This document shows, one piece after another, positions 2,932-19,700 of a stretch of 42,992 nt of DNA. This stretch comes from Bacteroidota bacterium. GTDB lineage: Bacteria > Bacteroidota > Bacteroidia > Chitinophagales > Saprospiraceae. Within the stretch, counting starts at the first letter, position 1; every line of letters starts with the position of its first letter. Position numbers and translations under genes: made by a program. The DNA lies in contig CAUJEY010000329.1 of assembly GCA_963169325.1 (NCBI GenBank), positions 1 to 42,992 on the forward strand. The letters are read 5' to 3'. The notes below the pieces were generated by a model. It saw only the letters and a program-made list of their open reading frames with translations. It made no database searches and had not been told where the DNA came from.

Positions 2932-3079
2932 GGAAAAATTTTCCGGTTAGGCGGTTAGCGCCGTTTTTGACGTTTTGTTATAATTTGGTGCGAAAAGGTA
3001 CGCACATTTCGGGAATGCATAGCGCTCTGAAAAAATTTCAGACACCCGAATGTCAGGGTATTTACTTTTTCCCGCATCC

Positions 3080-3100
3080 TTTTCCGCAAAACGCGGAAAA
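3080..3100. promoter_or_regulatory. Palindrome TTTTCCGC-N5-GCGGAAAA upstream of frr
   Basis: A perfect 8-bp inverted repeat with a 5-nt centre lies in the divergent intergenic region, immediately upstream of a candidate frr -7 box. It could be an operator overlapping the -33 region, or a hairpin. No T-tract follows on the frr side, so I do not call it a terminator. Confidence 0.3.
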
Positions 3101-3105
3101 CTTGT

Positions 3106-3113
3106 GAACTTTG
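3106..3113 (+). promoter_or_regulatory. Candidate -7 box (GAACTTTG) for frr
   Basis: GAACTTTG differs from the Bacteroidota consensus TAnnTTTG at one position and lies 53 nt before the frr ATG. The -33 position is occupied by the palindrome at 3080-3100 rather than by a clear TTTG. Confidence 0.25.
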
Positions 3114-3166
3114 CGCGCTCAACACGACCTGTTCGCAGGTTTCTATTTTGCACTAACCCTCCTGTT

Positions 3167-3727
3167 ATGGAAGAAGTCAGTAAAACAATGGCCGAAGCAA
3201 AGGCCCAAATGGACAAAGCATTGGAGCACCTCGACCACGAGTTGGCTAAACTCCGTACCGGTAAAGCATCCGTGTCTATTGTTCAGGATCTTATGGTAGA
3301 TTATTATGGAGCGCCAACGCCGCTGGCCCAGATAGCCAATGTGCAGGTTTCCGACGCGCGCACCATCATTATTCAGCCCTGGGAAAGAAATATGCTCGGG
3401 CCGATCGAACGGGTGATCATCAATAGCAATATCGGCATCACGCCGTCCAACGACGGCGAAGTGATCCGCCTGTCGGTGCCCCCGCTCACGGAAGAGCGTC
3501 GCAAGGAATTGGTCAAAAAAGCCAAACATGCCGGCGAAGAAAGCCGGATAGGCGTACGAAACGCCCGCCACAAGTCGCTCGATGCCATCAAAAAAGCCGT
3601 GAAAGACGGCCTGCCCGAAGATATGGGCAAACGTAAAGAAACCGAATTGCAGGATTTGGTCAATAAATACGTGGAGCAGGTGGATAAAGTCATTGCCGCC
3701 AAAGAGAAGGAAATAATGACTGTTTAA
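3167..3727 (+). CDS. frr: Ribosome recycling factor
   Basis: This 186-residue protein, the normal RRF length, splits post-termination ribosomes together with EF-G in the cytoplasm. Family signatures include an N-terminal helix with LAKLRTGKAS, the YYGAPTPLAQIANV segment, RTIIIQPWE, SNIGITPSNDG, and the highly conserved C-terminal LTEERRKELVKKAK followed by RIGVRNARH. I place the start at the ATG at 3167; the open frame extends upstream to 3050, but that stretch has no RRF similarity. It is followed after 19 nt by the DUF5606 gene, probably in one transcription unit that ends at the terminator at 4300-4350. Confidence 0.98.
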   Translation: MEEVSKTMAEAKAQMDKALEHLDHELAKLRTGKASVSIVQDLMVDYYGAPTPLAQIANVQVSDARTIIIQPWERNMLGPIERVIINSNIGITPSNDGEVIRLSVPPLTEERRKELVKKAKHAGEESRIGVRNARHKSLDAIKKAVKDGLPEDMGKRKETELQDLVNKYVEQVDKVIAAKEKEIMTV

Positions 3728-3746
3728 AGGTCGGAAACTATAAAAG

Positions 3747-4277
3747 ATGAACTTAGAAAAATTTCTCGTGATCGCCGGCGTGCCGGGCGTACACAAATTG
3801 GTGTCTACGCGCAACAACGGCTTAGTCATCGAAGACCGCCAGGAGGGACGTACCCGTTTTGTGCCGGTGCGCCAAAACCAGATTACTCCCCTGGGCACGG
3901 TAGCCATTTACGCCGATACGGATGAAGGTACCGTACCCATTGCTGATGTCTTTCAAAAAATGCTGGACCAGCTGACATCCACGCCACCGGCGCCGGTCAC
4001 CGCAAACAGTACCGAATTACGCAACTATTTCACCCAAATACTGCCCGAACACGACCGCGACCGGGTGCACATCAACGACATCAAGAAGTGCATCAAATGG
4101 TTCAATTTTATGATGGAAAAAGGCATTTTTGAAGAAGTAAAGCGTGAAAGTATAACCGAAGAAACAGTAAATACTGAAGAAGTAGCAAATCCCGAAGAAG
4201 TAGTAAGTCCCGAAGAAGTAACAAATCCCGAAGAAATCCCGGAAAACAATGACCCGGAAAAAATCGAAACGGCCTGA
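3747..4277 (+). CDS. DUF5606 protein with C-terminal acidic hexapeptide repeats
   Basis: A 176-residue protein whose first 135 residues match the Bacteroidota-specific DUF5606 family: it opens MNLEKFLVIAGVPGVHKL, with GLVIEDR and TRFVPVRQNQITPLGTVAIY soon after. The function is unknown in the literature I can recall. The C-terminus is low-complexity and acidic, built from hexapeptides of the type EEV(A/V/T)NP encoded by 18-bp DNA repeats. It probably shares a transcript with frr, 19 nt upstream, and ends just before a strong terminator. The family call is good; the role is unknown. Confidence 0.85.
   Translation: MNLEKFLVIAGVPGVHKLVSTRNNGLVIEDRQEGRTRFVPVRQNQITPLGTVAIYADTDEGTVPIADVFQKMLDQLTSTPPAPVTANSTELRNYFTQILPEHDRDRVHINDIKKCIKWFNFMMEKGIFEEVKRESITEETVNTEEVANPEEVVSPEEVTNPEEIPENNDPEKIETA
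4158..4229 (+). repeat. Four 18-bp in-frame coding repeats in the DUF5606 gene
   Basis: Four consecutive 18-bp units begin GAAGAA and mostly end AAATCCC or AAGTCCC (4158-4175, 4176-4193, 4194-4211, 4212-4229). They encode acidic hexapeptides and keep the frame. Copy-number change by slippage would lengthen or shorten the acidic tail in steps of six residues. Confidence 0.9.
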
Positions 4278-4299
4278 TTCCAACATTAAAATCCAAAAA

Positions 4300-4350
4300 C
4301 ATCGGGGTTGTGTCAAAAGTCTTTTGACGCAACCCTGATGTTTTCCTTTT
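4300..4350 (+). terminator. Strong Rho-independent terminator after the frr-DUF5606 unit
   Basis: The arms 4300-4319 and 4321-4340 are complementary over 20 positions, with two G-U pairs and one unpaired base between them (in practice a short loop around AAAGTCTTT). The right arm is followed by TTTTCCTTTT (4341-4350). It lies 22 nt after the DUF5606 stop. The glycosyltransferase ATG at 4353 comes only 2 nt after the T-tract. Confidence 0.85.
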
Positions 4351-4352
4351 CT

Positions 4353-5105
4353 ATGTACAAAGAAAAAAAAGTTGTCGTCGTATTACCGGCTTATAATGCC
4401 GCCAAGACCCTGGAAAAGACATACCGGGAAATTCCATTCAATCTGGTGGACGATGTGATTCTGTGCGACGACCACAGTCGCGATAACACTGCCGAACTGG
4501 CCCGCCAACTGGGTATCCGGCACGTGCTCGTACACGAGAAAAACCAGGGCTACGGCGGGAACCAGAAAACGCTTTACAACAAAGCCCTTGAAATCGGCGG
4601 CGATATCATTATCATGCTGCACCCCGATTATCAGTACACGCCCAAACTTATTCCCTCGATGGTAAACATCATCGGCGAAGAGTTGTACCCGGTGGTGCTG
4701 GGCTCGCGGATACTCGGCATGGGCGCCCGCAAGGGAGGCATGCCTATGTATAAGTATATCGCCAACCGGTTTCTGACTTTTACGCAGAATACGCTGATCA
4801 ACTACAAATTGTCGGAATACCACACCGGATACCGGTCTTTCAGCCGTCAGGTACTCGAAACCATCAATTTTAACCAAAATTCCGACGATTTTGTCTTCGA
4901 CAACGAGATGCTTTCCCAAATCGTGTATGCCGGATTCGACATCGGAGAAGTGACCTGCCCGACCAAATATTTCGAGGAAGCTTCCAGTATCAATTTCCGC
5001 CGGAGTATGAAATACGGCCTGGGTGTACTCCGGGTTTCATTCAACCACTTTTTGCAGCGCTTGGGGCTGGTCAATTTGCAGATGTACCGCACACAATCAA
5101 AATAG
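4353..5105 (+). CDS. Family 2 glycosyltransferase
   Basis: A 250-residue GT-A-fold glycosyltransferase, likely cytoplasmic or membrane-peripheral, transferring a sugar from a nucleotide-sugar donor to a lipid or glycan acceptor. The N-terminal strand VVVVLPAYNAA and the DDVILCDDHSRDNT segment are the classic GT2 nucleotide-binding motifs, and HPDYQY supplies the DXD-like site. The NQGYGGNQ segment is seen in dolichyl-phosphate-mannose-synthase-like members. There is no C-terminal membrane helix. The preferred start is ATG 4353; an in-frame ATG at 4338 and a TTG at 4308 lie inside the upstream terminator. The gene therefore has little room for a conventional leader. It converges with the TSUP gene, 11 nt away. 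Confidence 0.88.
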   Translation: MYKEKKVVVVLPAYNAAKTLEKTYREIPFNLVDDVILCDDHSRDNTAELARQLGIRHVLVHEKNQGYGGNQKTLYNKALEIGGDIIIMLHPDYQYTPKLIPSMVNIIGEELYPVVLGSRILGMGARKGGMPMYKYIANRFLTFTQNTLINYKLSEYHTGYRSFSRQVLETINFNQNSDDFVFDNEMLSQIVYAGFDIGEVTCPTKYFEEASSINFRRSMKYGLGVLRVSFNHFLQRLGLVNLQMYRTQSK

Positions 5106-5116
5106 CGTCACCAGCC

Positions 5117-5872
5117 TCATTTCAATACATCCCACGCAAATCGCGCGATAATACCCGCAACCACGACCAGAAAAACCTTGCGGATAAAAGCATTTCCGCG
5201 AAGCATAGCCATCCGGCTGCCGGTATACGACCCCGCAACATTACATACCATCATAGGCAAGGCCAGGTGGAACAACACGTATTTGTGCGTGAGAAAAAAA
5301 ATCAGCGACGAAACATCGGCGATCACGTTGACTACTTTAGAAATAGCCGACGAAGAGAGAAAATCGTATCCGATCAGGCCTACGAAGCCAAACACCAGCA
5401 AACTCCCCGTGCCGGGACCTACAAGTCCGTTATAAAAACCAAGCACGGCTCCAATGCCGGCGGCCCACAGCGGTTTTCGGTTTTCAGCAATATGAAATCG
5501 CTCGCTTTGGCCCAGGTCTTTTTTCCGGTAGGTGTAAAAAGCGATGGCAATAATCAGAACCAGAATGATCGGCTTTAGAAGATCGGAAGGCAACATACTT
5601 TGTAAAGTGGCGCCGAAATAGGAGCAAATAGCCGCGGCGACGCCGGCAAATAATACAATCCGCCAGGGAATACGCACCGCGCGCGCATAATTCCACGCAG
5701 CCACCGACGTGCCGACCGCCGAAGCCAGGCGATTGGTCCCGATAATGTTGGGTACACTCAGTTGCGGGTACAACACAAAAAAGGCAGGCACCTGCACCAG
5801 TCCGCCCCCGCCGACCACACTGTCGATAAATCCGGCCAAAAAGGCAAAAGTGCACAGTAAGATGAGTTCCAT
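5117..5872 (-). CDS. TSUP family (TauE/SafE) membrane permease
   Basis: A 251-residue inner-membrane protein with about seven to eight hydrophobic helices. It carries the family hallmark GFIDSVVGGGGLVQVPAFF near the N-terminus and its second-half counterpart GFYNGLVGPGTGSLLVFGF, the internal duplication expected of TSUP transporters. Members export or import sulfite, sulfoacetate or other organosulfur anions; the substrate here cannot be read. I start at the ATG at 5870-5872 (MELILLCTF), because the 19 residues upstream in the open frame are hydrophilic and unlike the family. It stands alone on the minus strand, convergent with the glycosyltransferase. Confidence 0.9.
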   Translation of the reverse strand: MELILLCTFAFLAGFIDSVVGGGGLVQVPAFFVLYPQLSVPNIIGTNRLASAVGTSVAAWNYARAVRIPWRIVLFAGVAAAICSYFGATLQSMLPSDLLKPIILVLIIAIAFYTYRKKDLGQSERFHIAENRKPLWAAGIGAVLGFYNGLVGPGTGSLLVFGFVGLIGYDFLSSSAISKVVNVIADVSSLIFFLTHKYVLFHLALPMMVCNVAGSYTGSRMAMLRGNAFIRKVFLVVVAGIIARFAWDVLK

Positions 5873-6254
5873 GATAAAAATTAATGCGTTTGGGGGCTGT
5901 TCAAAACCCTCGCCCCGGTTCACAGCCAAATATTCGCAAACATGGTCATAAACCGCCGCCTATGAAATAGTACGACCTCAACAAATCCACCAATTATCGT
6001 GAAAAACCTCGGTCACCTGCCAGTTTCGAGTCTCCGAATGTTCTTTCAGCAGGTTTTGTCAAAGGATAAAAATCAGCTTGGATGAGTGGAGGCAGATGCT
6101 CTTTGTCGCAGGGTTAGTACATTCTAAATTAAGTTGGTTAAGATTTTGCCCTGCATGGCGACCATTTCTTTGATGAAGGCGTAAGTGCTTGCCCAAATAT
6201 TTTTCTGCGAACCGCTTACCTTTGGTGCATGAGATGCAATAAAACATCAATACA
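5873..6254. other. Intergenic region without a supported gene
   Basis: About 380 nt lie between the divergent TSUP and sigma-factor genes. Short open frames on the minus strand around 5960-6262 show patches of plausible coding sequence (for example around 6000-6060) but are broken by stops and match nothing I recognise. They may be a decayed gene. The only functional signal I can suggest is a TACCTTTG box at 6217. Confidence 0.4.
6217..6224 (+). promoter_or_regulatory. Candidate -7 box (TACCTTTG) for the sigma-factor operon
   Basis: TACCTTTG is an exact match to TAnnTTTG, 30 nt before the sigma-factor ATG. The nearest upstream TTG (6189-6191) is spaced too far (25 nt) for a good -33 element, so support is partial. 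Confidence 0.35.
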
Positions 6255-6863
6255 ATGCGCATGATGGAATGGCTGGCCCCTTCAAACCCTTGCCGTCAGT
6301 TTGACGGCAATGAACGTTTGTTTCAGGCCTTGAAAAGATTGGACAATACGGCGATCCTTTGCGTACAAACCAGGGCCATGCCCTCGGCACGCAAATTTGC
6401 GCAGCAATACGGCTTGCCGCCAGACAGCGCGGACGAGGTGCTGAACCAGAGTACGCTTATTTTTTTGCGAAAAATAGCGGACGGCAGTTACCAGTTTCAA
6501 GGCCACGCCCCCTCCACCTATCTTGTGGAAATCATGCGGCGGGTGGCCCTGACGATGACCCGAAAGCAGCAAAAAACGCACGAATCACTTGAAAACCACC
6601 ACGATCTGCACGACCCGGATGTGGAGGCCGCCCACCGGCAGCGCGAATCCGCCGACCTGGTACGGCAGTTTTTGGCGCAAATAGGCGAGCCTTGCAAAAC
6701 GGTCATTCAGCTGCATCACATTGATGGTTACAGCGATGAAGAGGTGGTTCGGCAAGGATGGACCCGATATTCCACAACCGACTCCTTGAAAATAAAACGC
6801 AGCGATTGCATGAAAAAATTGATACAAATTGCACAGAAATGGAGGACTACAGACAATATCTGA
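6255..6863 (+). CDS. ECF-like RNA polymerase sigma-70 family factor
   Basis: A 202-residue cytoplasmic sigma factor, expected to direct RNA polymerase to a dedicated promoter set. Residues about 20-110 resemble region 2: ARKFAQQYGLPPDSADEVLNQSTLIFLRKI gives the acidic, helical 2.1-2.2 pattern and GSYQFQGHAPSTYLVEIMRRVA the 2.3-2.4 pattern. Residues about 135-200 resemble region 4, with the VIQLHHIDGYSDEEVV helix-turn-helix start and the final recognition helix rich in Lys and Arg. There is no region 1 or 3, as in ECF factors. The start at 6255 has alternative in-frame ATGs at 6261 and further in. The last 25 nt overlap the next gene, which suggests translational coupling with its presumed regulator. 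Confidence 0.82.
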   Translation: MRMMEWLAPSNPCRQFDGNERLFQALKRLDNTAILCVQTRAMPSARKFAQQYGLPPDSADEVLNQSTLIFLRKIADGSYQFQGHAPSTYLVEIMRRVALTMTRKQQKTHESLENHHDLHDPDVEAAHRQRESADLVRQFLAQIGEPCKTVIQLHHIDGYSDEEVVRQGWTRYSTTDSLKIKRSDCMKKLIQIAQKWRTTDNI

Positions 6864-7690
6864 GCGATAACGCCGACGAGGCCGAACGCCGCGCCGCGGC
6901 ACAGGTGATGGAAGGGCTGGCAGAACTTCGCCGGGAAGTCAGGGTGGGCGAAGTGGCCGCCGAACGGGCCGCTTTGTACCGACGCCTCTTCTGGCGGCGC
7001 ATCTTTATTTCAATAGTCGCGTTGGCATTGGTTGCCGGCGCGGCATACTTGTTTTTTTGGAACAAAGAAACGCCCGTCGCGCCGCCCCCGGCGCTGCAAC
7101 AACAGGAGCAGTATCCGGCCCCGCCTGCCAAAAATCAGACGCCGCCTGTTGAAAAAACGGACGACAGGAAAGCAAACGAACCCATTGCCGGGTTGCGCCC
7201 CGGCGAGCGCCTGTCAAACCCGCGCTACCCCGCTCCGGAAGGGACGATGATACGCGGCGACGAAACGGCCGACAAAGCCCGTAAAGCTTTGCTCGATCAA
7301 TTATGGTACACCGATTATCCGCTGACGGGAGTGAGAACCGGCCAATCCTTTACAAAAGCCGACGAAAGTTTGAAAAAGCGGGATTTTAACGTCGCATACC
7401 TTGAATTGGAGCGTTTAGAAGGGCAAATGGCCAAAAATGACACCCTGCTTTACCTGAAAGGTTATTGTCTGATGGAAATGGGGGAAGGCAACGAGGCTCT
7501 CACTTATTTCGACCGGCTTCAAGGCCGTCATGCCGACTGGGAACCACAACTGCAATGGTATCGGGGCCTGGCGATGCTGCTGGCCGACGAGCGGGAAAAG
7601 GCTTTGGCGCTGTTCAAACAATTGGAAGCCCGGTCCAAACACCCGTATCGCCGGCAGGCGGAGAAGGCGACGGGGTTGTTGTCGAAATAA
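6839..7690 (+). CDS. Single-pass membrane protein, candidate anti-sigma factor with periplasmic TPR-like domain
   Basis: A 283-residue protein. Residues 1-54 are charged and helical (MEDYRQYLSDNADEAERRAA), resembling the short N-terminal helix of Bacteroidota anti-sigma-like proteins. Residues 55-74 form one membrane helix preceded by RRLFWRR, so the N-terminus should be cytoplasmic and the rest periplasmic. A Pro/Gln-rich linker spans about 78-120. The C-terminal 110 residues contain TPR-like helix pairs (LKGYCLMEMGEGNEALTYF and WYRGLAMLLADEREKALALF). No zinc-binding HXXXCXXC is present, so it is not a classic zinc-finger anti-sigma factor. I chose ATG 6839, which overlaps the sigma gene by 25 nt; the frame opens earlier, at 6758. 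The anti-sigma role is inferred from overlap, topology and N-terminal character. Confidence 0.65.
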   Translation: MEDYRQYLSDNADEAERRAAAQVMEGLAELRREVRVGEVAAERAALYRRLFWRRIFISIVALALVAGAAYLFFWNKETPVAPPPALQQQEQYPAPPAKNQTPPVEKTDDRKANEPIAGLRPGERLSNPRYPAPEGTMIRGDETADKARKALLDQLWYTDYPLTGVRTGQSFTKADESLKKRDFNVAYLELERLEGQMAKNDTLLYLKGYCLMEMGEGNEALTYFDRLQGRHADWEPQLQWYRGLAMLLADEREKALALFKQLEARSKHPYRRQAEKATGLLSK

Positions 7691-7696
7691 TCTCTA

Positions 7697-7795
7697 TTTT
7701 TTAATCCACCTTTGGCAAAACTAAATTGACTGCATCATGCAAAAAACGTTGCTTTTGATTCTTTGCCTCGCCCCTTGTTGGCTGACTGCCCAAAC
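7697..7795 (+). repeat. Leader plus signal-peptide block shared by the two TPR-CHAT genes (copy 1)
   Basis: This block, from the T-run before the gene to the end of the signal-peptide codons, is nearly identical to 10600-10698; I count four base differences by eye. It includes about 40 nt of non-coding leader (TTAATCCACC, GGCAAAAC, ATTGACTGCA) that must have been duplicated with the gene. It may hold the regulatory element of both genes. CACCTTTG in copy 1 is one base off the -7 consensus but is not kept in copy 2. Confidence 0.85.
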
Positions 7796-10577
7796 GGTGG
7801 ATTCTGTTGTTTTTCGGCAGGTGGATAGCCTGATAAAGGTTTCCGGTGCGCTTACCGATGAACAGAAATTTGACAAAGCCTTCGAAGTAGGTGCGGCGGC
7901 TGAACAACTCGCCCTCGAAAAACTGGGAAAGGAGTCGGCGGCGTATGCTAAATGCTGTTCAAACCGGGGAAGGGTAAATCTTAACAAAGGGAATTATTCG
8001 GAATCCGAAAAATGGTATTTCCAGGCCAGGGCCATCCAGGAAAAAACAATAGGAAAGCAACACTATGATTATGCTGTACTCTTGAACAATCTTGCTCTTC
8101 TTTACTACTATTTGCAAGATCACGAAAAAGCCGAACAGTTCTTCCTTGAAGCCCTTTCTGTCTATGAAAAAGTACTGGGGAAAGAACATCTTAATTTTGC
8201 TGCATGCCTGGATGGCCTCGGACTAATTTACTACGAAATGGGCGATTATGAAAAAGCCGAACCGATATACCTCGAATCCAAAGCCATTTACGAGAAAAAA
8301 CTCGGAATTGAACATCCCCAATATGCAAGTTGTCTGAACAACCTTGCAATCCTGTACATTGATATGGGCAATTCCAAAAAAGCCGAAACACTCTACCTTG
8401 AAGCCCAATCAATCATCGAAAAAGCACAGGGAAAAGAAAACCCTGAGTACGCAGTATCCCTGAACAACCTCGCACTTCGTTATCATGATGACGGCGATTA
8501 CGAAAAAGCCGAACTGCTCTACCTCGAAGCCATAGCAATCTACGAAAAAATTCAGGGAAAAGAGAGTCCGTGGTACGCCATAAGCCTGTTTAATCTCGGT
8601 ACGCATTATTTTGATAAAGGCGATTACGAAAAAGCTGAACCGCTCCACGTCGAAGCCAAAGCCCTTTTAGAAAAAACACTGGGAAAAGAGCATCCAATTT
8701 ACGCAGAAGCACTTGACGACCTCGCAACTCTTTATCTCGGTATAGACAATTACGAAAAAGCGGAGCAACTCTACGTTGAGTCCACGGCAATCCGGGAAAA
8801 AGTATTAGGTAAAGGGCACCCCGATTATGTTTCAGGACTGCGAAACCTTGCACCGCTTTACATGGCTATGGGCAACTACGAAAAAGCCGAACCGCTTTAT
8901 GTAGAATGCGCTCAGAGGAGCCAATCCTTGCTACAAAAAGCAGTACGCCACCTCTCAGAACGAGAACTGCGAACTTACCTGGATGAATTTTCCAAAAGCC
9001 AGGACCAAGCCCTGTCTTTTGTCCAACTATCCGCCAACAAAATAGTAGCGGCAGCCTGTTTTGACAATGCCCTGTTTTACAAGGGCTTCCTACTCCAGGC
9101 CACTGGGCAGATCAAACGAATGTCCTTTCTTAACCCGGTGGCCGCCGAAAGTTTCAGCCTGCTCAAATCATACGAACGCCGCCTCGCCGCTCAATACGCG
9201 CAGCCCATCGCCGAACGTGACAGCGCAACCGTCGCCGAGATGGAGTCCAAAGCCAACGACCTCGAAAAAGAACTCGCCCGAACGGTGGCTGGTTTCGGCC
9301 AAGCCTTGCGGCAGGTCAAATGGCAGCAGGTGCAGGCAGCATTGAAGCCGAATGAAGCGGCGATTGAGTTTGTACATTATCGTTTTTATCAAAAAAAGCA
9401 AACCGACAGCACCCTGTACGCCGCGCTCGTCCTCCTGCCCGGCACCAATGCACCCCAATTCATCCCGCTTTTTGAAGAAAAACAACTCGCCGCCTTCCTG
9501 AAAACCGGGAGCAAGCCCCAACCCGCTTTTTACAACGAACTCTACGCCGCAGGCAAAGCGGGCGATCAACTCTACGATTTGATCTGGAAACCCGTCGTTG
9601 CCGCCTTGCCGGAAGGTACCACGGTCTACTGCTCACCCTCCGGCCTGCTGCACCGCCTCAACCTCGGAGCCATTCCAACGCCCGACGGAAAAACATGGAC
9701 CGAAAAACACCGCCTGAGCACATTGGGCAGCACCCGCCAGTTGGTCGTGCCATCTGCTCTGGCGGCGAATCAAAACGCTACCGCCCAACTCTACGGCGGC
9801 ATCCAATACGACGTGACGCCTGTTGTGGCCGCCAATACCGACGTAAAACCCGGCGACGACATAGCCGCCCGGCGCGGCCCCGATTTTGCCCAAAACGATT
9901 CCACCCTGCGCGGCGACACCTGGAACTACCTGCGTTGGACAGAAGTGGAAATCACTTCCGCCGCCGAAACAATGCAACGCAAAGGCATTGCGCCGACTTT
10001 GAAAAAAGGCACAGAAGCCTCCGAGGAATCGTTCAAATCTATGGGCGCAGACACTCCTTCCCCACGTATCCTGCACGTGGCCACGCACGGCTTTTTTTTC
10101 CCCGACCCTACTAAAGGCGAGCAGGCGAGCAATGAAAAAACGTTCAAAGTATCAGAGCATCCCATGATCCGTTCCGGCCTCGTACTGGCTGGCGGCAACC
10201 ACGCCTGGAAAACGGGCAAACCCGCCCGGCCCGATCTGGAAGACGGCATCCTCACGGCCTACGAAATCAGCCAGATGAATCTCTCCAGCACCGAATTGGC
10301 GGTGCTGTCGGCCTGCGGAACGGGTCTCGGCGACCTCGTGGGCAACGAAGGCGTGTACGGCTTGCAACGTGCCTTCAAAATAGCCGGCGTCCGGTATCTC
10401 ATCATGTCGCTGTGGCAGGTGCCCGATTTTCAGACCCAGGTGTTTATGAGCGCCTTTTACAAACACTGGCTGACGGACGAGAAGTCTGTACCGGAGGCAT
10501 TTCGCGCCACGCAGTCAGAGCTGAAGGCCAAATATGGCGAGGCGTTTAAATGGGCGGGATTTGTGTTGGTGGAGTAA
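7737..10577 (+). CDS. Exported TPR-CHAT putative cysteine protease, copy 1
   Basis: A 946-residue protein. A signal peptide covers residues 1-19 (ending LTAQ), so it should be periplasmic or beyond. Residues 45-380 are eight consecutive 42-residue kinesin-light-chain-like TPR units (consensus YEKAEPLYLEA.AI.EK.LGKEHP.YA..LNNLA.LY..MGN), followed by a partial ninth. A helical linker with LERELARTVAGFG-like sequence leads to a CHAT (caspase-HetF-associated) domain at about 630-946. The catalytic dyad is visible: His784 in HVATHGFFF and Cys860 in LSACGTGLG. CHAT proteins are caspase-fold cysteine peptidases (separase, gRAMP-associated TPR-CHAT); substrates of exported versions are unknown. It lacks a T9SS sorting domain. 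It lies 46 nt after the membrane-protein gene and is paralogous to the next gene. Confidence 0.9.
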   Translation: MQKTLLLILCLAPCWLTAQTVDSVVFRQVDSLIKVSGALTDEQKFDKAFEVGAAAEQLALEKLGKESAAYAKCCSNRGRVNLNKGNYSESEKWYFQARAIQEKTIGKQHYDYAVLLNNLALLYYYLQDHEKAEQFFLEALSVYEKVLGKEHLNFAACLDGLGLIYYEMGDYEKAEPIYLESKAIYEKKLGIEHPQYASCLNNLAILYIDMGNSKKAETLYLEAQSIIEKAQGKENPEYAVSLNNLALRYHDDGDYEKAELLYLEAIAIYEKIQGKESPWYAISLFNLGTHYFDKGDYEKAEPLHVEAKALLEKTLGKEHPIYAEALDDLATLYLGIDNYEKAEQLYVESTAIREKVLGKGHPDYVSGLRNLAPLYMAMGNYEKAEPLYVECAQRSQSLLQKAVRHLSERELRTYLDEFSKSQDQALSFVQLSANKIVAAACFDNALFYKGFLLQATGQIKRMSFLNPVAAESFSLLKSYERRLAAQYAQPIAERDSATVAEMESKANDLEKELARTVAGFGQALRQVKWQQVQAALKPNEAAIEFVHYRFYQKKQTDSTLYAALVLLPGTNAPQFIPLFEEKQLAAFLKTGSKPQPAFYNELYAAGKAGDQLYDLIWKPVVAALPEGTTVYCSPSGLLHRLNLGAIPTPDGKTWTEKHRLSTLGSTRQLVVPSALAANQNATAQLYGGIQYDVTPVVAANTDVKPGDDIAARRGPDFAQNDSTLRGDTWNYLRWTEVEITSAAETMQRKGIAPTLKKGTEASEESFKSMGADTPSPRILHVATHGFFFPDPTKGEQASNEKTFKVSEHPMIRSGLVLAGGNHAWKTGKPARPDLEDGILTAYEISQMNLSSTELAVLSACGTGLGDLVGNEGVYGLQRAFKIAGVRYLIMSLWQVPDFQTQVFMSAFYKHWLTDEKSVPEAFRATQSELKAKYGEAFKWAGFVLVE
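7869..8876 (+). repeat. Eight tandem 126-bp TPR-coding units in copy 1
   Basis: Residues 45-380 are eight gap-free 42-residue units, equal to eight 126-bp units at the DNA level. Each carries the (Y/F/H)xKAE start, an EK.xGKE.P.Y core and an NLA.xY turn. The units have diverged in DNA sequence, so this is an old array. Confidence 0.92.
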
Positions 10578-10599
10578 GGTATTTTAAACTAATAAAACC

Positions 10600-10698
10600 T
10601 TTTTTAATCCACCTTCGGCAAAACAAAATTGACTGCACCATGCAAAAAACGTTGCTTTTGATTCTTTGCCTCGCCCCTTTTTGGCTGACTGCCCAAAC
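10600..10698 (+). repeat. Leader plus signal-peptide block (copy 2)
   Basis: Second copy of the block at 7697-7795, comprising the T-run, about 40 nt of leader and the signal-peptide codons. The only differences seen are T/C, T/A, T/C and G/T substitutions. Confidence 0.85.
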
Positions 10699-13606
10699 TA
10701 TTGATTCTGTTGCCATCCGGCAGGTAGATAGCCTCATCCAGGTTTCCCGTGCGCTTACCGGTAAGCGGGACTTTGACAAAGCCCTCGAGGTGAATGCAAC
10801 TGCGGAAAAAATTGCCCTCGAAAAACTGGGAAAGGAATCAGCAACGTATGGCAATTGCGCTTTCAATCGGGGCAGGATAAATGCACTTAAAAGAGACTAC
10901 CCGGAGGCCGAAAAGTGGTACATGAAAGCCATCGCCATCCGGGAAAAAGTACTGGGAAAACAACACGCCGATTATGCCGGAGGCCTGAATAACTTGGCCA
11001 TTCTGTATAAATCCATGGGCAAATATGAAAAAGCCGAGCTACTCTACCTCGAGGCCATGGAAACCCGGGAAAAAGCATTGGGTAAAGAGCACCCTAATTA
11101 TGCCGCCAGCCTGTACAATCTGGCGCTCCTTTACCAGGATATGGGCAAGTACGAAAAAGCCGAACCACTTTTCCTCGAAGCGAAAGACATCTTTGGAAAG
11201 GTGCGCGGGAAAGAGCATCCCGATTATGCAGCCTGTCTGAACGGCCTGGCACTCCTTTACATGGCTATGGGCAACTACGAAAAAGCCGAACCACTTTACC
11301 TCGAAGCCAAAGCCATCCGGGAGAAAGTACAAGGTAAGGACCATTCGGATTATGCTGAAATTCTGAACAACCTTGCAAGCCTGTACAGAACCATGGGCAA
11401 CTACGAAAAAGCGGAACCGTTACACCTCGAAGCGAAAGCCATAAAGGAGAAAATACTGGGAAAGGAGCACCCCAGCTATGCCCTGAGCCTGAACAACCTC
11501 GCGATTCTTTACAGGGCAATGGGCAGCTATGATAAAGCCGAATCGCTTTACCTCGAAGCCATATCAATCAAGGAAAAAACACAAGGCAAGGAGCACCCTG
11601 GCTATGCCCTAAGTTTAAATAACCTCGCAATCCTTTACTGGACTATGGGCAACTATGAAAAAGCCGAGCCACTCTACCTCGAAGCCCTTGCCATCCGGGA
11701 AAAAAAACTGGGGGCAGCGCATCCTGAATATGCCTCAAGCCTGAACAACCTGGCACTTCTTTACCTTGATATGGGTAGTTTCGAAAAGGTTGAGCCGCTA
11801 TACCTTCAAGCCAAAGCTATCCGGGAAAAAGCACTGGGGGTAGCGCATCCTGACTATGCCGAAAGCCTGAACAACCTGGCACTTTTTTACAACGCTACAG
11901 GCAACTACGAAAAAGCCGAGTCGCTATATGAAGAATGTTCGCAGACGAATCAATTACTGTTGGAGAAAGCGATACGCCATCTCTCTGAGCGCGAACTGGG
12001 CAACTACCTGAACAAATTTTCCGAAAGCCAGGATCAAGCGCTCTCTTTTGTTCAACTGTCCGCCAGCAAAAAAGGGACAGCAACCTGTTTTGACAATGCC
12101 CTGTTTTACAAAGGATTCCTGCTTCAAACCGCCGGGCAGATCAAACGAATGGCTCTTTCCGACCCGGCTTCTGCCGAAAACTTTAACCTGCTCAGATCCT
12201 ACGAACGCCGCCTCGCCGCCCAGTACGCCCAGCCCATCGCTGACCGCGACAGCATAACCGTCGCCGACCTGGAGGCCAAAGCCAACGACCTCGAAAAAGA
12301 CCTCGCGCGGACGGTGGCTGGCTTCGGCCAAGCCTTGCGGCAGGTCAAATGGCAAGCGGTACAGGCGGCATTAAGGCCCGGTGAAGCAGCGGTCGAGTTT
12401 ATCAACTATCGTTATTATCAAAAAAAGCAAATCGACAGTACACTATACGCAGCACTCCTCCTCTTGCCAGGTACAGACGTTCCAAAATTCATCCCCCTTT
12501 TTGAAGAAAAACAACTCAATGCCCTCCTCAAAACGGAAGGCCGACCACAGCCCGCTTTTTACAACGAGCTCTACGCCGCAGACAAAACGGGTAGCCAACT
12601 CTACGATTTGATCTGGAAACCCGTCGTTGCCGCCTTGCCGGAAGGGGCTACGGTATATGCTTCGCCGTCCGGCCTGTTGCACCGCCTCAACCTCGGCGCC
12701 ATTCCAACACCCGACGGAAAAACACTCGCCGAAAAACACCGCCTGACTACCCTGGGCAGCACCAGGCAGTTGGTCGTTCCACCCGTGTCTGCCATCAACC
12801 AAAACGCTACCGCCCAACTCTACGGCGGCATTCAATACGATGCGACGCCTGATATAGCTGCCAATAACGACGCAAAACCCGACGACCTGGCCGCCCGGCG
12901 CGGCTCCAATTGGGGCGGAGAGAATGACTCCACCCTGCGCGGCGACAACTGGAACTACCTCCGCTGGACGGAAGTGGAAATCAGCGCCGCCGCCGAGACG
13001 ATGAAAAACAAAGGCTTTGACGTTGACGTCAAAAAAGGTGCGGAAGCCACCGAAGAATCGTTCAAAGCCATTGGCGAAGACGGCCCTTCCCCCCGTATCC
13101 TGCACGTGGCCACGCACGGCTTTTTTTTCCCGGACCCTACTAAAGGCGAGCAGGCGAGCAATGAGAAAACATTCAAAGTATCAGATAATCCCATGATCCG
13201 CTCCGGCCTCGTGCTGGCTAGCGGCAACCACGCCTGGAAAACAGGCAAACCCCTGCGCCCAGACTTGGAAGACGGCATCCTCACGGCCTACGAGATCAGC
13301 CAGATGAACCTCTCCAACACCGAATTGGCGGTGCTGTCGGCCTGTGAAACGGGCCTCGGCGACCTCGTGGGCAACGAAGGCGTGTACGGCCTGCAACGCG
13401 CCTTCAAAATAGCAGGCGTCCGGTATCTCATCATGTCGCTGTGGCAGGTGCCCGATTTTCAGACCCAGGTGTTTATGAGCGCCTTTTACAAACACTGGCT
13501 GACCGACGAGAAGTCCGTACCGGAGGCATTTCGCGCCACGCAGTCAGAGCTGAAGGCCAAATACGGCGAGGCGTTTAAGTGGGCGGGATTTGTGCTGGTG
13601 GAGTAA
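10640..13606 (+). CDS. Exported TPR-CHAT putative cysteine protease, copy 2
   Basis: A 988-residue tandem paralogue of the upstream gene with the same order of parts: signal peptide 1-19, nine 42-residue TPR units at 45-422 plus a partial tenth, a helical linker, and a CHAT domain with His826 (HVATHGFFF) and Cys902 (LSACETGLG). Both catalytic positions are shifted by exactly 42 relative to copy 1, so the proteins differ in length by one TPR unit and otherwise align without gaps. SACETG is the common CHAT form. The start is ATG 10640, which keeps the signal peptide identical to copy 1; the frame opens at 10550 inside copy 1. The last 113 residues differ from copy 1 at two positions only. It is followed by a convergent T9SS gene, so the operon ends here. 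Confidence 0.9.
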   Translation: MQKTLLLILCLAPFWLTAQTIDSVAIRQVDSLIQVSRALTGKRDFDKALEVNATAEKIALEKLGKESATYGNCAFNRGRINALKRDYPEAEKWYMKAIAIREKVLGKQHADYAGGLNNLAILYKSMGKYEKAELLYLEAMETREKALGKEHPNYAASLYNLALLYQDMGKYEKAEPLFLEAKDIFGKVRGKEHPDYAACLNGLALLYMAMGNYEKAEPLYLEAKAIREKVQGKDHSDYAEILNNLASLYRTMGNYEKAEPLHLEAKAIKEKILGKEHPSYALSLNNLAILYRAMGSYDKAESLYLEAISIKEKTQGKEHPGYALSLNNLAILYWTMGNYEKAEPLYLEALAIREKKLGAAHPEYASSLNNLALLYLDMGSFEKVEPLYLQAKAIREKALGVAHPDYAESLNNLALFYNATGNYEKAESLYEECSQTNQLLLEKAIRHLSERELGNYLNKFSESQDQALSFVQLSASKKGTATCFDNALFYKGFLLQTAGQIKRMALSDPASAENFNLLRSYERRLAAQYAQPIADRDSITVADLEAKANDLEKDLARTVAGFGQALRQVKWQAVQAALRPGEAAVEFINYRYYQKKQIDSTLYAALLLLPGTDVPKFIPLFEEKQLNALLKTEGRPQPAFYNELYAADKTGSQLYDLIWKPVVAALPEGATVYASPSGLLHRLNLGAIPTPDGKTLAEKHRLTTLGSTRQLVVPPVSAINQNATAQLYGGIQYDATPDIAANNDAKPDDLAARRGSNWGGENDSTLRGDNWNYLRWTEVEISAAAETMKNKGFDVDVKKGAEATEESFKAIGEDGPSPRILHVATHGFFFPDPTKGEQASNEKTFKVSDNPMIRSGLVLASGNHAWKTGKPLRPDLEDGILTAYEISQMNLSNTELAVLSACETGLGDLVGNEGVYGLQRAFKIAGVRYLIMSLWQVPDFQTQVFMSAFYKHWLTDEKSVPEAFRATQSELKAKYGEAFKWAGFVLVE
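10772..11905 (+). repeat. Nine tandem 126-bp TPR-coding units in copy 2
   Basis: Residues 45-422 are nine gap-free 42-residue units, one more than in copy 1, starting at the same residue number (45). Units 2-8 keep the (F/Y)xKAExLYLEA consensus more closely than the copy 1 units do. Confidence 0.92.
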
Positions 13607-13761: not shown

Positions 13762-16700
13762 TCATCGTTCCAGTACAAATCGCGCCGCAGGCTGCATACC
13801 ACCGGCCGCAGACTGTGCCGTGAGGTAGTACAACCCGTTGGCCAGTCCTTCGGGCAGGAGCAGGCTGATCCGGTTATTTTCGGCCACAAAGCGGCCCTCC
13901 AGCACCAACTGGCCCAGCGCGTTCAGCACCGAAATCTGCACCGGCTGACCGGAATCCGGCTCCGCCGTTTGCAAGTCGATGAGCAGCAGTCCGCTCGTAG
14001 GGTTGGGCCGCAACAGCAAGGCCGGGCCTGCCGTTGTCGCGCCGCGGTTTTGTGCAGCGCCGGCTGGTTCCTGTGCCGAGGCTACGTACGGCTGCACCGG
14101 GCAGGCAAACGTGTTCAGGTGCGCGTCGTACGTGCTGCCGTCTTCCAGTTTTACCGAAACAAGGATGAACAAGGGCTGTGCCTGCTTGGGCAAAGTGTAC
14201 TCGAAAACGTCGCTTTTGCCATTATTCAGCGCGCCCGAAGTTGATTTGAAGCGGACAGAATGGAACGGCGCCGCGTTCGGATTGCGCACCAGGTAGGTGT
14301 TTCCGCTGACAGCGGTATAGGTGGAGCCTTCGACGGGCGCCTTGGCAGTGATGCCGTCGGGCAGCTGGAAACAGGCGTACCGCAGCGGGCTGGCGCAGGT
14401 ATTGGTCAGCCGGAAGCGGTAGCGCGGCCGGCCCAGCGAGTCGAGCCGGATGCTGAGGATTTCGTACTTGATACAACTGCCCACAGGAGTTTTTACGTCG
14501 CAGGCCGTTTCGTCCACGGCAGCCTTTTGTACCGTCACCGTGAAGCAACAGGTGTCGCGGATGCCGCATTGGTTGGCCGCCTCGTGACATACCAGGGTGT
14601 TACCCAGGGGGAACTGGCCGCCCGGGGGCGGGCCTTGCAGGCGCGTCAACGCGATGCCGGGGTCGGGGCAATCGGTGGCGGCGGCGGGTAGCGGGTAGGC
14701 CACGGGCGCCGAACTGGCGTTGGCCGGGACGGTTACCGTCAGGGCGGGCGGACAGGCCAAATCGAGGTTCGTGATTAAGCGCTGGAGGATGTAGGTGACG
14801 ACCGAGTCGCAGCTATTGCCCGTTGTCAGTGTCTGCGTTATGGTGTCGGGCTGGAAGTAGGGGATACCGGCGAGGATAACAGTATCGCCCGGGTAAAACT
14901 GGATGGTCACGGTTGTCGGAACAACCGGAGGCAAAACAGTCACTGAAACGGTGTCCCGCAGGATGCGCCCACAGGCATCCGTTGCTTCCACGCGAATAAT
15001 TCCGGTCGAGTTGGCCGCTACTGTTTGTGTAGTCGGGCCATTCGACCATTTGTAGGCAACAAACCCGGTTCCGGCATTCAACAGGACGCTTTGCCCGGCA
15101 CAAAGGATGCGGTCGGGGCCGAGGTCGGGTTTTTGGGGTGCGGGCGGGTACTGGAAAGCGAGGCTGTCGAAGTTATTCGTGTAGTCGCACTCGGCAATGC
15201 CGTTATACGGAAAGCCGGCCAGATTCACCGGGGCCGTTTGCCCGCTTTTGATGCCCGCCAGGGTGTACACTTTGTTGTAATTTCCCCAGAAACTGAGGTT
15301 TGGCAGCGTGCCGGTTTGGCAGGAATCGGGTGCGAGATTAAGGGTTGGAAGGAGAAACAGGTCGAGCTGGGTGGCCGCGCCGGTCATGGGGTTGCTGTCG
15401 TACACGCCTACCTGCAATGTGCCGGTGAAGGGCTGCTTGCCGGTGTTGCAGAGGCGATAGGCGACAAATGCTGCCGAGTCGCAGCCCACGGACTCGATCC
15501 GGAAGCTGATGTCAGGTTTATCGGAGCAAGGCGGGTCGGGGCAAAAGGGGCAGGCGCTGTGGACGGCTATCGAACCCGGTGCGTTGGTCAGTGTAACCGC
15601 TTGTGCAGTTGCCGGGCTGGTTGTCGCGGTCTGCTGGGCGGCGAAGAGCACCGGATTTGTCATTGCGGTATCCGACACAGCTAAAAGCTCGAGCCCGCAG
15701 TCGAACTCCAGGCCGAGGTTCAGGTCCGTTTTCAACACCGTGGTGAATTGCCCAGCGGTATTGCCCTTTGCCGAAAAATCCGTGATGTACAGATATGACC
15801 CGACGCGCTCGATCTGGTTTTTTTGCAAATCTTCGTATCCGGCGGAAAAATAGTCCGGCGTGTTGAGTGCTTTGGCAAACAAGAGGTCGCCTTCCTTGTC
15901 GGTCTTCAAAAAATGTCTTTTGTTGTTGCCGCAGAAGATGACGTACCCGTCGGGCACGGCCACTACCTCTCTTGGCACCTCGGTGAGCAAGTATTTTTTA
16001 GCCCAGAGCAGGTCGCCGTCGAGGGTTGTCTTATGCAGGTAAACGGGCACCACCTTGCCAGAGCCTGTTGGAGTGTTGCTTGTCTCGATGCCGTGGGAAA
16101 GGACGATCAGGCTGTTGTCGTCTACGATCAGGTCAATACCCCTGAAATAGGACGTTTGTGACCAGGGAGTGAGGCCAAGGCGGGTCCACAACACATTGCC
16201 CGTGTTGGCATCCAACTTGGTCAGGGTTATGCGCCGCACACGCTGGTTGGTCGGAAGCAGGCTATCGGTATAGCCGGTGGCGTACAGCGCGTCGTCGTGC
16301 TGCACCATGCCCGCAAAAACCTGTATGTCCTGTTGTGCGTACCGCTTGGCAAACGCGGGCACGATTTGTCCGGTCGTTCTGTTCAGTTCGAGGATTTCAA
16401 CAGACTTGTACCCCAAGGCGTTGTAGTCGGGCGAATGGTAGATCAGGTAGTTGCCCCCCGGCTTTTTTTCCAAAATACCACCTTCGATGGGATTGTTGAC
16501 GCCAAATCGCTGTTCCCAAAGAATTTGGTTGGTCGCCGGGTTATAGCGAAAAGCCACTGTTTCGACGCCGGTCGAGCTGTTCCTGTGGGCGCTGCCGACG
16601 ATCATGCCCTCGCTGTCCACGATGATTTCGGTGACAAATATCCGGTCCTGTATGGTGCCGGTGATATTGTGCAACCACAGCATGTTGCCCGTGGGTGTCA

Positions 16701-19700
16701 TTTTGCCGATGGCGTACCCGTCCGCCTTGCCGCCGGCTACATAGATATTCCCGTCGGGCGCCGCGCGCAGGGCGGCTATGTTGTCCTGTTTGATAATTTC
16801 GCCATAAACTTTGAGGAAGGTATTCGGCTGGCAGGAGTCTGCCGGGCACAACGTCGGATCTATGGCAAAACTATCCAGGTTGTTTTCCCAGTGACAATCC
16901 GGAAAATCTGCGTTTGCTGCCAGCAGGCCCAGGTCGATGGGCGTGGTCGTGCTGGCAGGCACGCCCGCGAAGGCATAAATTTTCGGATACTGCGTGGCCA
17001 CGGCGGGCAGCGATTCAGTGGTTTCGATGCAGCCGCCCGGGCCGGGAGGCTGGTTCACTGTTATGCTCCAAAGCACCGTGGCAGCTTCCGTGAGCGGGTT
17101 TTTGTCATAAAAAACTACCCCGACGGGTGTGGGCGCAGCGACATCGCCGGTGTTGCAGGTTTTGGTTTTGAACTCGTATATGTTGCCGGCGGCACATTGG
17201 ATTTCGGTAACGCCGAACGATATGTCGGGCTTGTCCGCGCAAGAGCAATCTGGGCATAACTTGCGCAGCGGCAACGAGTCCGCCTGAAAAACGGCGTTTG
17301 CCGGCAACGCTGCCGAAGCCGGTGTGTTGGTGCCGATGCCAAACTGCGCGGGCTCCGTGGTCGCCGATAGTGTGCTGCTGCTCACCTGCACGGATTGCAG
17401 CAGGTCGCAGTCGTCGTCCAGCCCAAAATTCAAGTCGGTGCGCAGGAGCACCAGGTCGCTCTCGGTATTCTCCCAGGTATGGTCGAGCATGAGCAGTTGC
17501 AGGGGCAGGCGCAACAGCAGCCCCTGGCGGCTGACAAACCCAACGCTGTTGGGCGAGGTCGGCGCAGCATCCAGCACGGCTGCGCGCAGGACGTTGCCCT
17601 GTAAATCGGTCTTGAGCATACCAAACCTGTTGGTACCCACCATGCGGCCAAAAACGATGTAAGCATTGGGCAGTGCCAGCACCTCTTCGGGCACCATCTC
17701 CATGTCGTATCGTTTTAACCAGACCAGCGAGCCGTCGGGGTTGTGTTTTTGCAGGTAAACAAAAATATTCTCGGTGGGCGTGAGCGGGTTGAGGTGGCCG
17801 CTGCCCGCGATGATAGCAATGTCGCCGTCGAACGCCACGTCGGCCGGCGGCATCCAGCGGGCTGCGCCGGAACTGGTGTCGGGTATCGACAAATAGGCCC
17901 ATTCGGGGAAAAACGTGTTGGGGGATACCCTGGCAAAGAAAGGCAGCGCCTTATCATTAGTCTTCGTGACCCAACTGCCCACCGTGTACAACTTGCCGTT
18001 GTTCAGCACGGTGCTGCTAATCACAATATTATTGTCCTGGCTTTGGTAGCCGACACTGCTGCCTTTGGTGTTGCCGTCGGCCCGGTTGAGGGTAAAAAAT
18101 TGCGTTTGCGCACTCACTCCGCCGCTGCCGACCGTCTGATAATTGGCTTGCAGCACGAAATCGCCGCCGGGGCTTTTTTCCACGATGGCTACTCCCGTGG
18201 GCTTGTCGCTCTGATAGCGTTTGTACCACAGCACCGCACCCGCGACCGGGTCGTAGCGCATGGCGATGGCGCGGCGGTTGGAGGGCGAAGCCCCCTCGGT
18301 GCCGCATACCACGATCATACCGTCGGAGTCTTCGATGATTTGTGCCCATTCGATGGGTTCGTTGGGGTTTATCGGCGGGAAATTGCGCACCCAGATTTGC
18401 TCGCCCTGTGTGGTGATCTTGGCAATCATCGGGTTGTTGCCCTGCTTGCCGGCCACGTACACATTGCCGTCGGCAGAAGCGCACATGCTGAACGCCAGTT
18501 CGCGGCGCTGCGGGGCGCCCAGTTTTTTTACGAATGTGACCGGTGTTTGGCAGTCGCCGCAGAGGTTTTGGGGTACGCTGATACTGTCGAGGTTGTTGAG
18601 GTAGTTGCATTCCGCTTGGTTGGGCGGGTAGGGAAAACCGCTGATCGGGATGGGCGTCGTCACGGTATAGTTGGCGCCGATGAGAGCGTACAGGCGGGTA
18701 AAGGTATCCAGCTCGAAGGGCATCAGCAAATCCACGTCAGAACCGAAACTCCCCCAGCTGATACATTCGCCGGGCAGGATAGGCAGGCCGCCGCCGATTG
18801 AGCCGGTTATAAATTTAGCCGGGCTGGTGAGCGGATTTTGGTCGTACAAAAAGAAGGTGGAGGGCCCGTCGTAGGGCTGCCCCCCTACATTGCACACGGT
18901 AAAGTGCAGGCGCGAGTTGCCGTCCGTGCAGGTGATCGAGTCGAGCTTGACGCTCAGGTCGGGCAAGGTGGGGCAGGTACCCGTGGCGCCGCATTTTTTT
19001 TCAAAAGCCAGATCGGGTGTGGTTTGCGAAATGGTAGCCGCCGTCAGAGAGGCCGTGCCGGCGGTCACGGTTGGTACGAAAGATTGGGATACTGCGGAAT
19101 CCCAGTCGGAAAAGGTAACGGGCGTCTTTCGGACAAAATCGCAGGAATCGACCAGCAAACTATTCAGATCGGCCTTCACCAGGATGCCCTGCGTTTGTCC
19201 TAAATTGTTTTCGGTGAGGGCTGTAAAGAACAGCGCATTGCCGAGGCGCAGGATTTTGGAACGGGCAGGGATCTCCGGGAACTCGTCGTTCAGGCCGAAG
19301 TCAATGATTACCGCCGTGGCTGCGTTGCCCTCTTTGTCTGTTTTGAGCAAAAACAAGCGGCTCGTGTCCGCCCGGACATCGTGCCCATAGAGCAGGTAGC
19401 CGTCGGGCAAGTTGATGATTTCTTCGGCGAACTCGTGCGCAAAAGCGGGCAGTTTGTACTGCCGCACCCAGAGCAAATTGCCGTCCAGGTCGTTTTTTTG
19501 GAGATAAACTTCCGATTTGACCAAATCCGGCGATGAATGGTCGCCACTGAATGTGGACACGATCGTTTCGTTGTCTATGATCAGGTCGCGGCCATGGAAT
19601 TGCCCGGACGAACTGGTCAGTAACGGCCCGGTCCTGGTCCAGACCGGCTCGAGGGTAGCGGTGTCTATTTTGCAGACCGCATTGCGCATCCGGGCCGGCG

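Follow-up and report, generated by a model that had tools for sequence, protein, structure and literature searches.

A recurrent sigma factor, membrane protein and TPR-CHAT gene module in Bacteroidota and its possible role in proteolytic signalling across the envelope

Closest described systems and the locus

In type III-E CRISPR, Csx29 (a TPR-CHAT protein) cuts the sigma inhibitor Csx30, the extracytoplasmic function (ECF) sigma factor concerned being CASP-sigma (available text of PMC10028731). Here we describe a four-gene locus in a 42,992-nucleotide stretch of DNA (the window; contig CAUJEY010000329.1) from a Saprospiraceae member of the Bacteroidota (assembly GCA_963169325.1, the source genome, 8.07 Mb in 349 contigs), in which a sigma gene is followed by a gene for a single-pass membrane protein and two TPR-CHAT genes. 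Like the Csx29/Csx30/CASP-sigma system it combines a TPR-CHAT protease with a putative sigma inhibitor and an ECF sigma factor, but the CHAT proteins of the window are predicted to be exported and the putative inhibitor crosses the membrane once and carries a periplasmic domain of its own. The CHAT profile matched a PDB chain named Csx29 (7y9x, E 5.6e-4) and CHAT domain protein chains (8d9f, E 2.7e-6), the latter presumably from the same Csx29 system. Csx30 was absent from the best 60 of 251 PDB matches, no direct comparison with Csx30 having been made, and of the two marks of a type III-E CASP, a Cas7-11 (gRAMP) partner and a CRISPR array, the first was not found in the window, where the sole open reading frame (ORF) above 1018 amino acids (aa) encodes a secreted 2190-aa protein (this check was limited to large ORFs of the window and did not extend to arrays or to other parts of the genome).

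Sigma factors of group ECF54 have CHAT, subtilase and carboxypeptidase neighbours, and proteolytic control has been proposed for them; the available part of PMC8999054 describes them as acting without an anti-sigma factor. Our locus shares with ECF54 the conservation of CHAT proteins in an ECF context and is set apart from that description by a membrane candidate, present in 13 of 15 source-genome loci and 51 of 59 loci of relatives. It also resembles, in having a caspase-fold protease gene near an ECF or sigma-70 gene, the EACC2/caspase systems with their ECF sigma and DUF1822 TPR protein (PMC8195603) and the metacaspase-sigma operons of Myxococcus and others, the sigma operons named being those of delta-proteobacteria, Ralstonia and Fibrobacter (PMC3501461); the available portions of these two papers mention no exported CHAT protease or membrane anti-sigma factor.

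The earlier note on this DNA knew of no described system with this gene order. This stands in so far as the literature searched (with few subscription papers) gave, among the matches listed, no exported CHAT protease described with an anti-sigma factor, and it needs qualifying because CHAT near ECF54 (PMC8999054) and Csx29/Csx30 (PMC10028731) are in print. In Bacteroidetes, only 6% of ECF sigma factors were found to have a recognised class I anti-sigma factor as a neighbour, and control by other means was suspected (available text of PMC7406223). The locus offers one set of these sigma factors a concrete and recurrent answer, with a candidate regulator, a candidate protease and natural chimeras, and would, if the reading below is true, tie exported caspase-like proteases to gene control. 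In the DegS/RseP/RseA/RpoE pathway, regulated intramembrane proteolysis acts on a single-pass anti-sigma factor with a periplasmic domain. Our locus is similar in its single-pass putative anti-sigma factor with a periplasmic domain, a site-2 protease also being encoded in the source genome, and differs in that the putative site-1 protease is a caspase-fold TPR-CHAT protein, not a trypsin-fold PDZ protein, and is encoded beside the sigma gene. Proteolysis of the DegS/RseA type is mentioned in the available text of PMC10028731. The features of the locus are as follows.

6217..6224, + strand: TACCTTTG, promoter-like element, 30 nt ahead of the sigma start
6255..6863, + strand: ECF-type sigma factor, 202 aa (TIGR02937 E 2e-10 and Sigma70_r2 E 2.9e-4, both below cut-off)
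6839..7690, + strand: single-pass putative anti-sigma factor, 283 aa, 25-nt overlap with sigma
6839..7000, + strand: its cytoplasmic anti-sigma-like domain, residues 1-54 (family consensus; tracks sigma)
7001..7051, + strand: its transmembrane segment, residues 55-71 (hydropathy; similarity to L136 and L139 breaks at or near the segment)
7052..7444, + strand: its periplasmic Pro-rich linker, holding the candidate Arg-Gly site IRGDE, R139-G140, at 7253-7258
7445..7630, + strand: its periplasmic TPR-like region, residues 203-264
7737..10577, + strand: predicted exported TPR-CHAT protease 1, 946 aa, CHAT domain 9558-10571, His784/Cys860
10640..13606, + strand: predicted exported TPR-CHAT protease 2, 988 aa, CHAT domain 12584-13600, His826/Cys902

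The ORF of the membrane protein has a mechanical start at 6758, and the ATG at 6839 was adopted, which gives the 283-aa protein; the extension of the second CHAT ORF to 10550 lies upstream of the signal peptide. With these starts the earlier note's account of the four genes was borne out: a sigma gene overlapping by 25 nt that of a single-pass protein with a positively charged cytoplasmic side, a periplasmic Pro-rich linker and a TPR-like domain, followed by two TPR-CHAT proteins with predicted signal peptides and intact His/Cys dyads.

Recurrence of the gene group and exchange within the membrane protein

The source genome has 39 CHAT matches, 24 of them strong and within long TPR-CHAT ORFs, and 49 sigma region-2 matches. 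Eighteen of the 24 strong CHAT genes (15 of 21 loci) were near a sigma gene of the same kind in the stretches taken, in operon, divergent and convergent arrangements. An order-level sample of 40 genomes, including the source, was then counted with a sigma profile (A2) built from source-genome sigmas, mostly those near CHAT genes; the figures are for the matches listed outside the source genome (127 CHAT, 131 sigma and 128 Peptidase_C14), not for all matches. An A2-type sigma gene lay within 6 kb of 62 of the 127 CHAT genes, where 2.2 were expected, and such proximity was seen in 18 of the 24 genomes having a listed CHAT, whereas the control family Peptidase_C14, similar in number, was near a sigma gene in 4 of 128 cases (expected 1.5). 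Chance neighbourhood was rejected on these counts. The 62 comprised 20 convergent-type, 19 operon-type and 17 divergent-type loci and 6 with CHAT first. There is very little doubt that sigma factor, membrane protein and CHAT protein form a real conserved module. For closer comparison 59 loci of relatives were picked for a sigma gene near CHAT; 79 named loci found by the CHAT domain, many on short contigs, had such a sigma gene anywhere in the stretch in 16 cases and within 3 kb of the CHAT ORF in 12.

The gene order of the window, which had been open to the objection of being unique to this strain, was found in L055, L056 and L065 (Saprospiraceae or Bacteroidetes metagenome-assembled genomes, MAGs) and in L126, from Bacteroides oleiciplenus YIT 12058. 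The distance from sigma to CHAT was 2.3 kb in a Chitinophagaceae MAG (L091) and 5.8 kb in a Paludibacteraceae MAG (L127). B. oleiciplenus is a cultured species of the human gut whose single CHAT match stands in this order, so that the module is testable there. Its CHAT protein was matched in 47 of 201 genomes of its family, which we take to be the Bacteroidaceae. A sigma gene was present in 7 of the 20 Bacteroidaceae loci read further, each with a second caspase of C14 type; the order C14, sigma, membrane protein, CHAT was seen in L234, L237 and L241, as in L126. L227 and L231 had C14 and CHAT with no sigma in the stretch. The C14 ORFs of these and other CHAT loci carried the motif D-[AS]-C-H in all 12 looked at, with N-termini that appeared hydrophobic by eye, in some after an over-long ORF start.

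Other gene contexts were also observed. Five Bacteroidaceae loci with no sigma in the stretch (L229, L230, L233, L238, L239) had a membrane protein and a small exported protein followed by TPR-CHAT, the membrane protein being by eye like a CHASE2 protein (E 2.1e-22) of L055, the closest named relative, which together with a DUF928-like exported protein is encoded upstream of sigma there (2592-4879). Two tandem sigma/membrane-protein pairs stood beside one CHAT gene in L022 (289-3422) and L024 (6201-9325).

The strongest new evidence came from 75 sigma/membrane/CHAT triplets in which the membrane protein was divided into two halves at its membrane segment. Similarities were then compared for the sigma factor, the cytoplasmic half (anti-sigma domain, ASD), the periplasmic half and the CHAT domain. 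Of these loci 55 came from the 59 of relatives (L141, L142, L149 and L161 were dropped as no downstream ORF was detected) and 20 were hand-picked: 13 from the source genome, L055, L056, L065, L126 and three from Bacteroidaceae. L150 and L175 were kept despite a doubtful membrane segment, and the sigma-bearing loci omitted include L064, L066-L068, L076, L224, L225 and L228. The sigma/membrane pairs collected numbered 77; 22 of them were in frame, and 20 were entered as fused rows in an alignment (A5).

Compared with the window, L136 is alike in periplasmic half (0.65) and CHAT (0.80) but not in sigma (0.13) or ASD (0.03), while L139 is alike in sigma (0.63) and ASD (0.57) but not in periplasmic half (0.15) or CHAT (0.27); similarity begins just before the membrane segment in L136 and stops 10-20 residues past it in L139. 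Two loci of one contig, L183 and L184, likewise agree in periplasmic half (0.70) and CHAT (0.88) but not in sigma (0.11) or ASD (0.06). When the set was thinned to 59 loci, 8 pairs matched in the periplasmic half, of which 7 matched in CHAT and none in sigma; 10 pairs matched in sigma, of which 5 matched in ASD and 1 in CHAT. The background in the thinned set was 36 of 1711 pairs matching for CHAT and 13 of 1711 for ASD.

As a single cross-over within an operon could give this swap pattern without any functional tie, the loci were tested by arrangement. In the 21 divergent loci, where no part lies farther from the CHAT gene than the periplasmic half, a partial Mantel test of periplasmic half and CHAT given sigma and ASD gave r 0.24 (p 0.014), the values for sigma-CHAT and ASD-CHAT being -0.02 and 0.01; in the 20 convergent loci r was 0.32 (p 0.020), and over these 41 loci together sigma-CHAT and ASD-CHAT were about zero. 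A repeat with BLAST scores gave 0.26 for divergent and 0.34 for convergent loci (p 0.004 in each). The link of periplasmic half to CHAT domain persisted when the TPR part was also controlled (all loci, 0.13, p 0.002); that of periplasmic half to TPR given CHAT was not significant in any locus group, a weak contrast because the repeat-rich TPR similarities are noisier. Linear linkage was rejected as the cause of the swaps, since the link remains in divergent and convergent loci, as were near-identical orthologues, since it is kept in the thinned set of 59. The membrane protein thus appears to recombine at its membrane segment, the cytoplasmic half following sigma and the periplasmic half following CHAT, and these swaps and the co-variation suggest that the periplasmic half is probably paired functionally with the CHAT protein.

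The sigma, membrane and CHAT proteins

The window sigma scored 40.5 bits against the sigma70-ECF superfamily model TIGR02937, 2.4 under its cut-off of 42.9. The same model was matched by 19 of 19 sigma family members of the source genome (best 1.3e-24), and profile A2 matched solved ECF sigma factors across both domains, sigma2 and sigma4, in a PDB profile search, which places the family by its sequence among the ECF sigma factors. Two cysteines of the sigma4 region, Cys147 and Cys185 in window numbering, were invariant in 19 of 19 source-genome members and absent in L143 and L151; a redox or metal role for them is possible.

The sole hydrophobic segment of the membrane protein spans residues 55-71. 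RRLFWRR stands before it, so that the positive-inside rule places the N-terminus inside; the Pro-rich linker follows the segment, and then the TPR-like end (PknG_TPR E 2.1e-6). In the 13 source-genome loci that have it the gene lies directly downstream of sigma on the same strand, with spacing from an overlap to a gap of 97 nt; the two remaining loci are C164, which stops at a contig edge, and C150, where no partner was detected. In the 51 relatives' loci the downstream ORF with a hydrophobic segment starts from -199 to +116 nt from the sigma stop. The cytoplasmic halves share the pattern IExYLxGxLxxxE..FE..L..D..L. No conserved His or Cys of a zinc motif (Hx3Cx2C) was found in their alignment (A8), which does not bar membership of class I anti-sigma factors, as only about half of the known members have the motif (available text of PMC7406223). 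The Pfam family most often matched by the cytoplasmic domain was zf-HC2, with 16 of 27 relatives, of which L176 alone exceeded the cut-off (22.5 against 22.2 bits), and RskA_N was matched by 1 of 27. In a PDB profile search the domain matched 3hug_B (E 0.015), from an entry that also holds a sigma chain, and the anti-sigma factor DdvA (E 1.1). These matches give the protein a tentative likeness to class I anti-sigma factors of the non-zinc kind. With most zf-HC2 matches below cut-off, unrelated chains ahead of 3hug_B and no match to RseA (see below), the assignment draws mainly on gene pairing and co-variation with sigma, and with these we consider the membrane protein very probably an anti-sigma factor.

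A post hoc search for a candidate cut site in the linker used those 33 of 75 non-redundant periplasmic parts that were of TPR type and whose TPR start could be recognised. Arg followed by Gly, Ser, Ala, Asp or Asn clustered before the TPR start (the best stretch of 8 residues had it in 18 of the 33, compared with 9.6 in shuffles, scan p 0.0005) and Lys showed no such clustering in the same 33 parts; Asp followed by the same residues was enriched there too (p 0.003), a caveat on the specificity of the Arg scan. Arg-Gly dipeptides in the first 140 periplasmic residues numbered 37 of 80, against 24.8 in shuffles (maximum 35), and a Gibbs motif search of the periplasmic parts picked up the TPR start and no linker motif. 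The Arg-small-residue site (IRGDE, R139-G140 in the window) is offered as a lead only. By eye, the periplasmic half looked beta-rich instead of TPR-like in L066, L067, L076, L025, L147 and L171, and in several halves of this type an N-P-x-F-like stretch is followed by a retained Arg-small-residue site.

Each CHAT protein of the window combines TPRs with a Sec-type N-terminus and a CHAT domain (E 6.8e-52 for the first protein, 1.9e-54 for the second). The two CHAT domains are 87% identical to each other, and the TPR array with a His/Cys-bearing CHAT domain marks them out, from sequence, as TPR-CHAT proteases. His and Cys were invariant in 24 of 24 strong source-genome CHAT proteins, and the dyads were intact in 62 of 64 relatives' proteins, the other two being truncated by the stretch end. 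The earlier note's expectation of export, rather than a cytoplasmic location, is favoured by prediction: under one rule a signal-like N-terminus was found in 54 of 62 full-length relatives' CHAT proteins and in 1 of 59 sigma controls, and 20 of the 24 strong source-genome proteins passed it. A C-terminal hydrophobic anchor was present in 14 of the 62 and 9 of the 24. The twin arrangement to which the earlier note drew attention is present in the window and in L156 (the second copy there cut by the stretch end), and doubling is not constant, one CHAT gene being seen in the stretches read of L055, L056 and L162. Two loci from Saprospiraceae/Bacteroidota MAGs, L061 and L063, hold four and five TPR-CHAT ORFs in tandem, and neither stretch includes a sigma gene.

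A possible signalling route and its alternatives

We suggest that the module may signal across the envelope, the exported TPR-CHAT protease acting on the membrane anti-sigma factor to free the ECF sigma factor. As a whole this explanation is, in our judgement, evenly poised between true and false, and the same even-handed view applies to its central step, cleavage of the anti-sigma factor by CHAT. The sigma factor would be held at the inner membrane by residues 1-54, a non-zinc class I-like anti-sigma domain, as the pairing, resemblance and co-variation indicate. The TPR-CHAT proteins would be caspase-fold proteases exported to the periplasm, some relatives' proteins having a C-terminal membrane anchor, and the CHAT domain would have the periplasmic half of the anti-sigma factor as its partner, most likely as its substrate, as the swaps and co-variation suggest. 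A signal, probably sensed via the TPRs, would activate the protease, and cleavage of the linker, for which the Arg-small-residue site is one candidate, would be the site-1 cut, after which a site-2 protease (one is encoded in the source genome, G000:C157, E 6.2e-59) and cytoplasmic proteases may release sigma. Sigma inhibition by the membrane protein, the action of CHAT on the periplasmic half, cutting rather than binding, and the later site-2 steps are all steps that we infer. The earlier note had proposed that exported CHAT enzymes cut or bind the periplasmic part of the membrane protein, or else belong to the sigma regulon; the idea of CHAT acting on the periplasmic part gains independent support from the swaps at the membrane segment.

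A wider version is more doubtful, and we put it forward tentatively: a phylum-wide "outside-in caspase" pathway in which an exported TPR-CHAT protein switches on a dedicated ECF sigma factor by cutting the membrane anti-sigma factor at an Arg-Gly-like site, an exported C14 caspase from the same gene cluster joins in Bacteroidaceae in a possible two-step cascade, and anti-sigma swapping at the membrane rewires protease-matched periplasmic halves to sigma-matched cytoplasmic halves, Csx29/Csx30/CASP-sigma being an intracellular counterpart.

The CHAT genes could instead be output: the sigma/anti-sigma pair would use its own periplasmic domain to sense something else, and the CHAT proteins would be neighbouring regulon members that serve as envelope effectors. 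ECF sigma factors often control neighbouring genes, the CHAT genes stand in several orientations around the sigma pair as a target gene would, many CHAT genes have no sigma nearby, and sigma and CHAT are correlated over all loci. This account does not readily explain, however, why the periplasmic half, and not sigma or the cytoplasmic half, co-varies with CHAT in divergent and convergent loci, nor the swaps at the membrane segment, and the element upstream of the window-type operon resembles, by eye, a primary-sigma promoter; we think it unlikely. That the periplasmic half follows CHAT even in divergent loci speaks more for an exported protease whose target is the anti-sigma factor than for CHAT genes that are regulon members only. 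Control could also run in reverse, with the periplasmic half as an inhibitor, docking site or chaperone of CHAT and the state of the protease reaching sigma via binding. Co-variation of periplasmic half and CHAT suits a stable complex no less than a substrate, and the TPR-type and (by eye) beta-rich periplasmic halves are both plausible binding domains, but the Arg clustering in the linker hints at a cleavage site, and such a scheme seems to us improbable. Lastly, the CHAT and ECF families, both numerous in large Saprospiraceae genomes, might owe their proximity to chance or to one ancestral cluster having been duplicated, as the abundance of both kinds of match in the source genome would allow. 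The excess over expectation among the matches listed, the behaviour of the C14 control and the occurrence of the module in Bacteroidaceae (7 of 20 loci, plus L126) speak against this, and the four arrangements and non-parallel similarities of sigma and CHAT indicate that it is not one duplicated block, leaving such hitch-hiking very improbable indeed.

Several results weigh against the proposed signalling route. No sigma was in the stretch for 6 of the 24 strong source-genome CHAT genes (C182, C277, C16, C190b, C20, C170), and 65 of the 127 listed in relatives had no listed sigma nearby, from which it follows that CHAT proteins also work without sigma. Across the full set of 75 loci sigma also correlated with CHAT (partial r 0.13, p 0.002), as it did in the same-genus and thinned sets, and in the 28 operon loci it correlated with the periplasmic half (r 0.25, p 0.010); the link of sigma to ASD in divergent loci was not significant (p 0.086; BLAST scores 0.158), nor was that of periplasmic half to CHAT within single genomes (n=13 each; p 0.061 and 0.216). 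The correlations are weak (r 0.13-0.42) and the pairs are not independent, and co-variation of periplasmic half and CHAT fits binding or inhibition equally with cutting. As to the anti-sigma assignment, residues 1-54 of the window protein matched no Pfam family, unrelated protein A chains outranked 3hug_B in the PDB profile search (first at E 0.0014), and homology of the domain to E. coli RseA found no support, the profile comparison giving a probability of 0.6%.

The upstream regions were compared by eye for promoter autoregulation, which was rejected; the sole standout was the primary-sigma-like element. TACCTTTG (6217-6224) resembles what we take to be the Bacteroidota primary-sigma -7 element, TAnnTTTG, and CTTACCTT stands at a similar position upstream of sigma in L158, L156, L055 and L139. 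A known defence system was likewise rejected, PADLOC giving no match for sigma or the membrane protein and weak TPR/PDC-M71B matches for CHAT. Beside the locus, a minus-strand gene (13762-20334) encodes the secreted 2190-aa protein, with HYR and a type IX secretion system (T9SS) sorting tail (the tail below cut-off), and a TauE/SafE-type permease is encoded at 5117-5929, divergent from the sigma operon.

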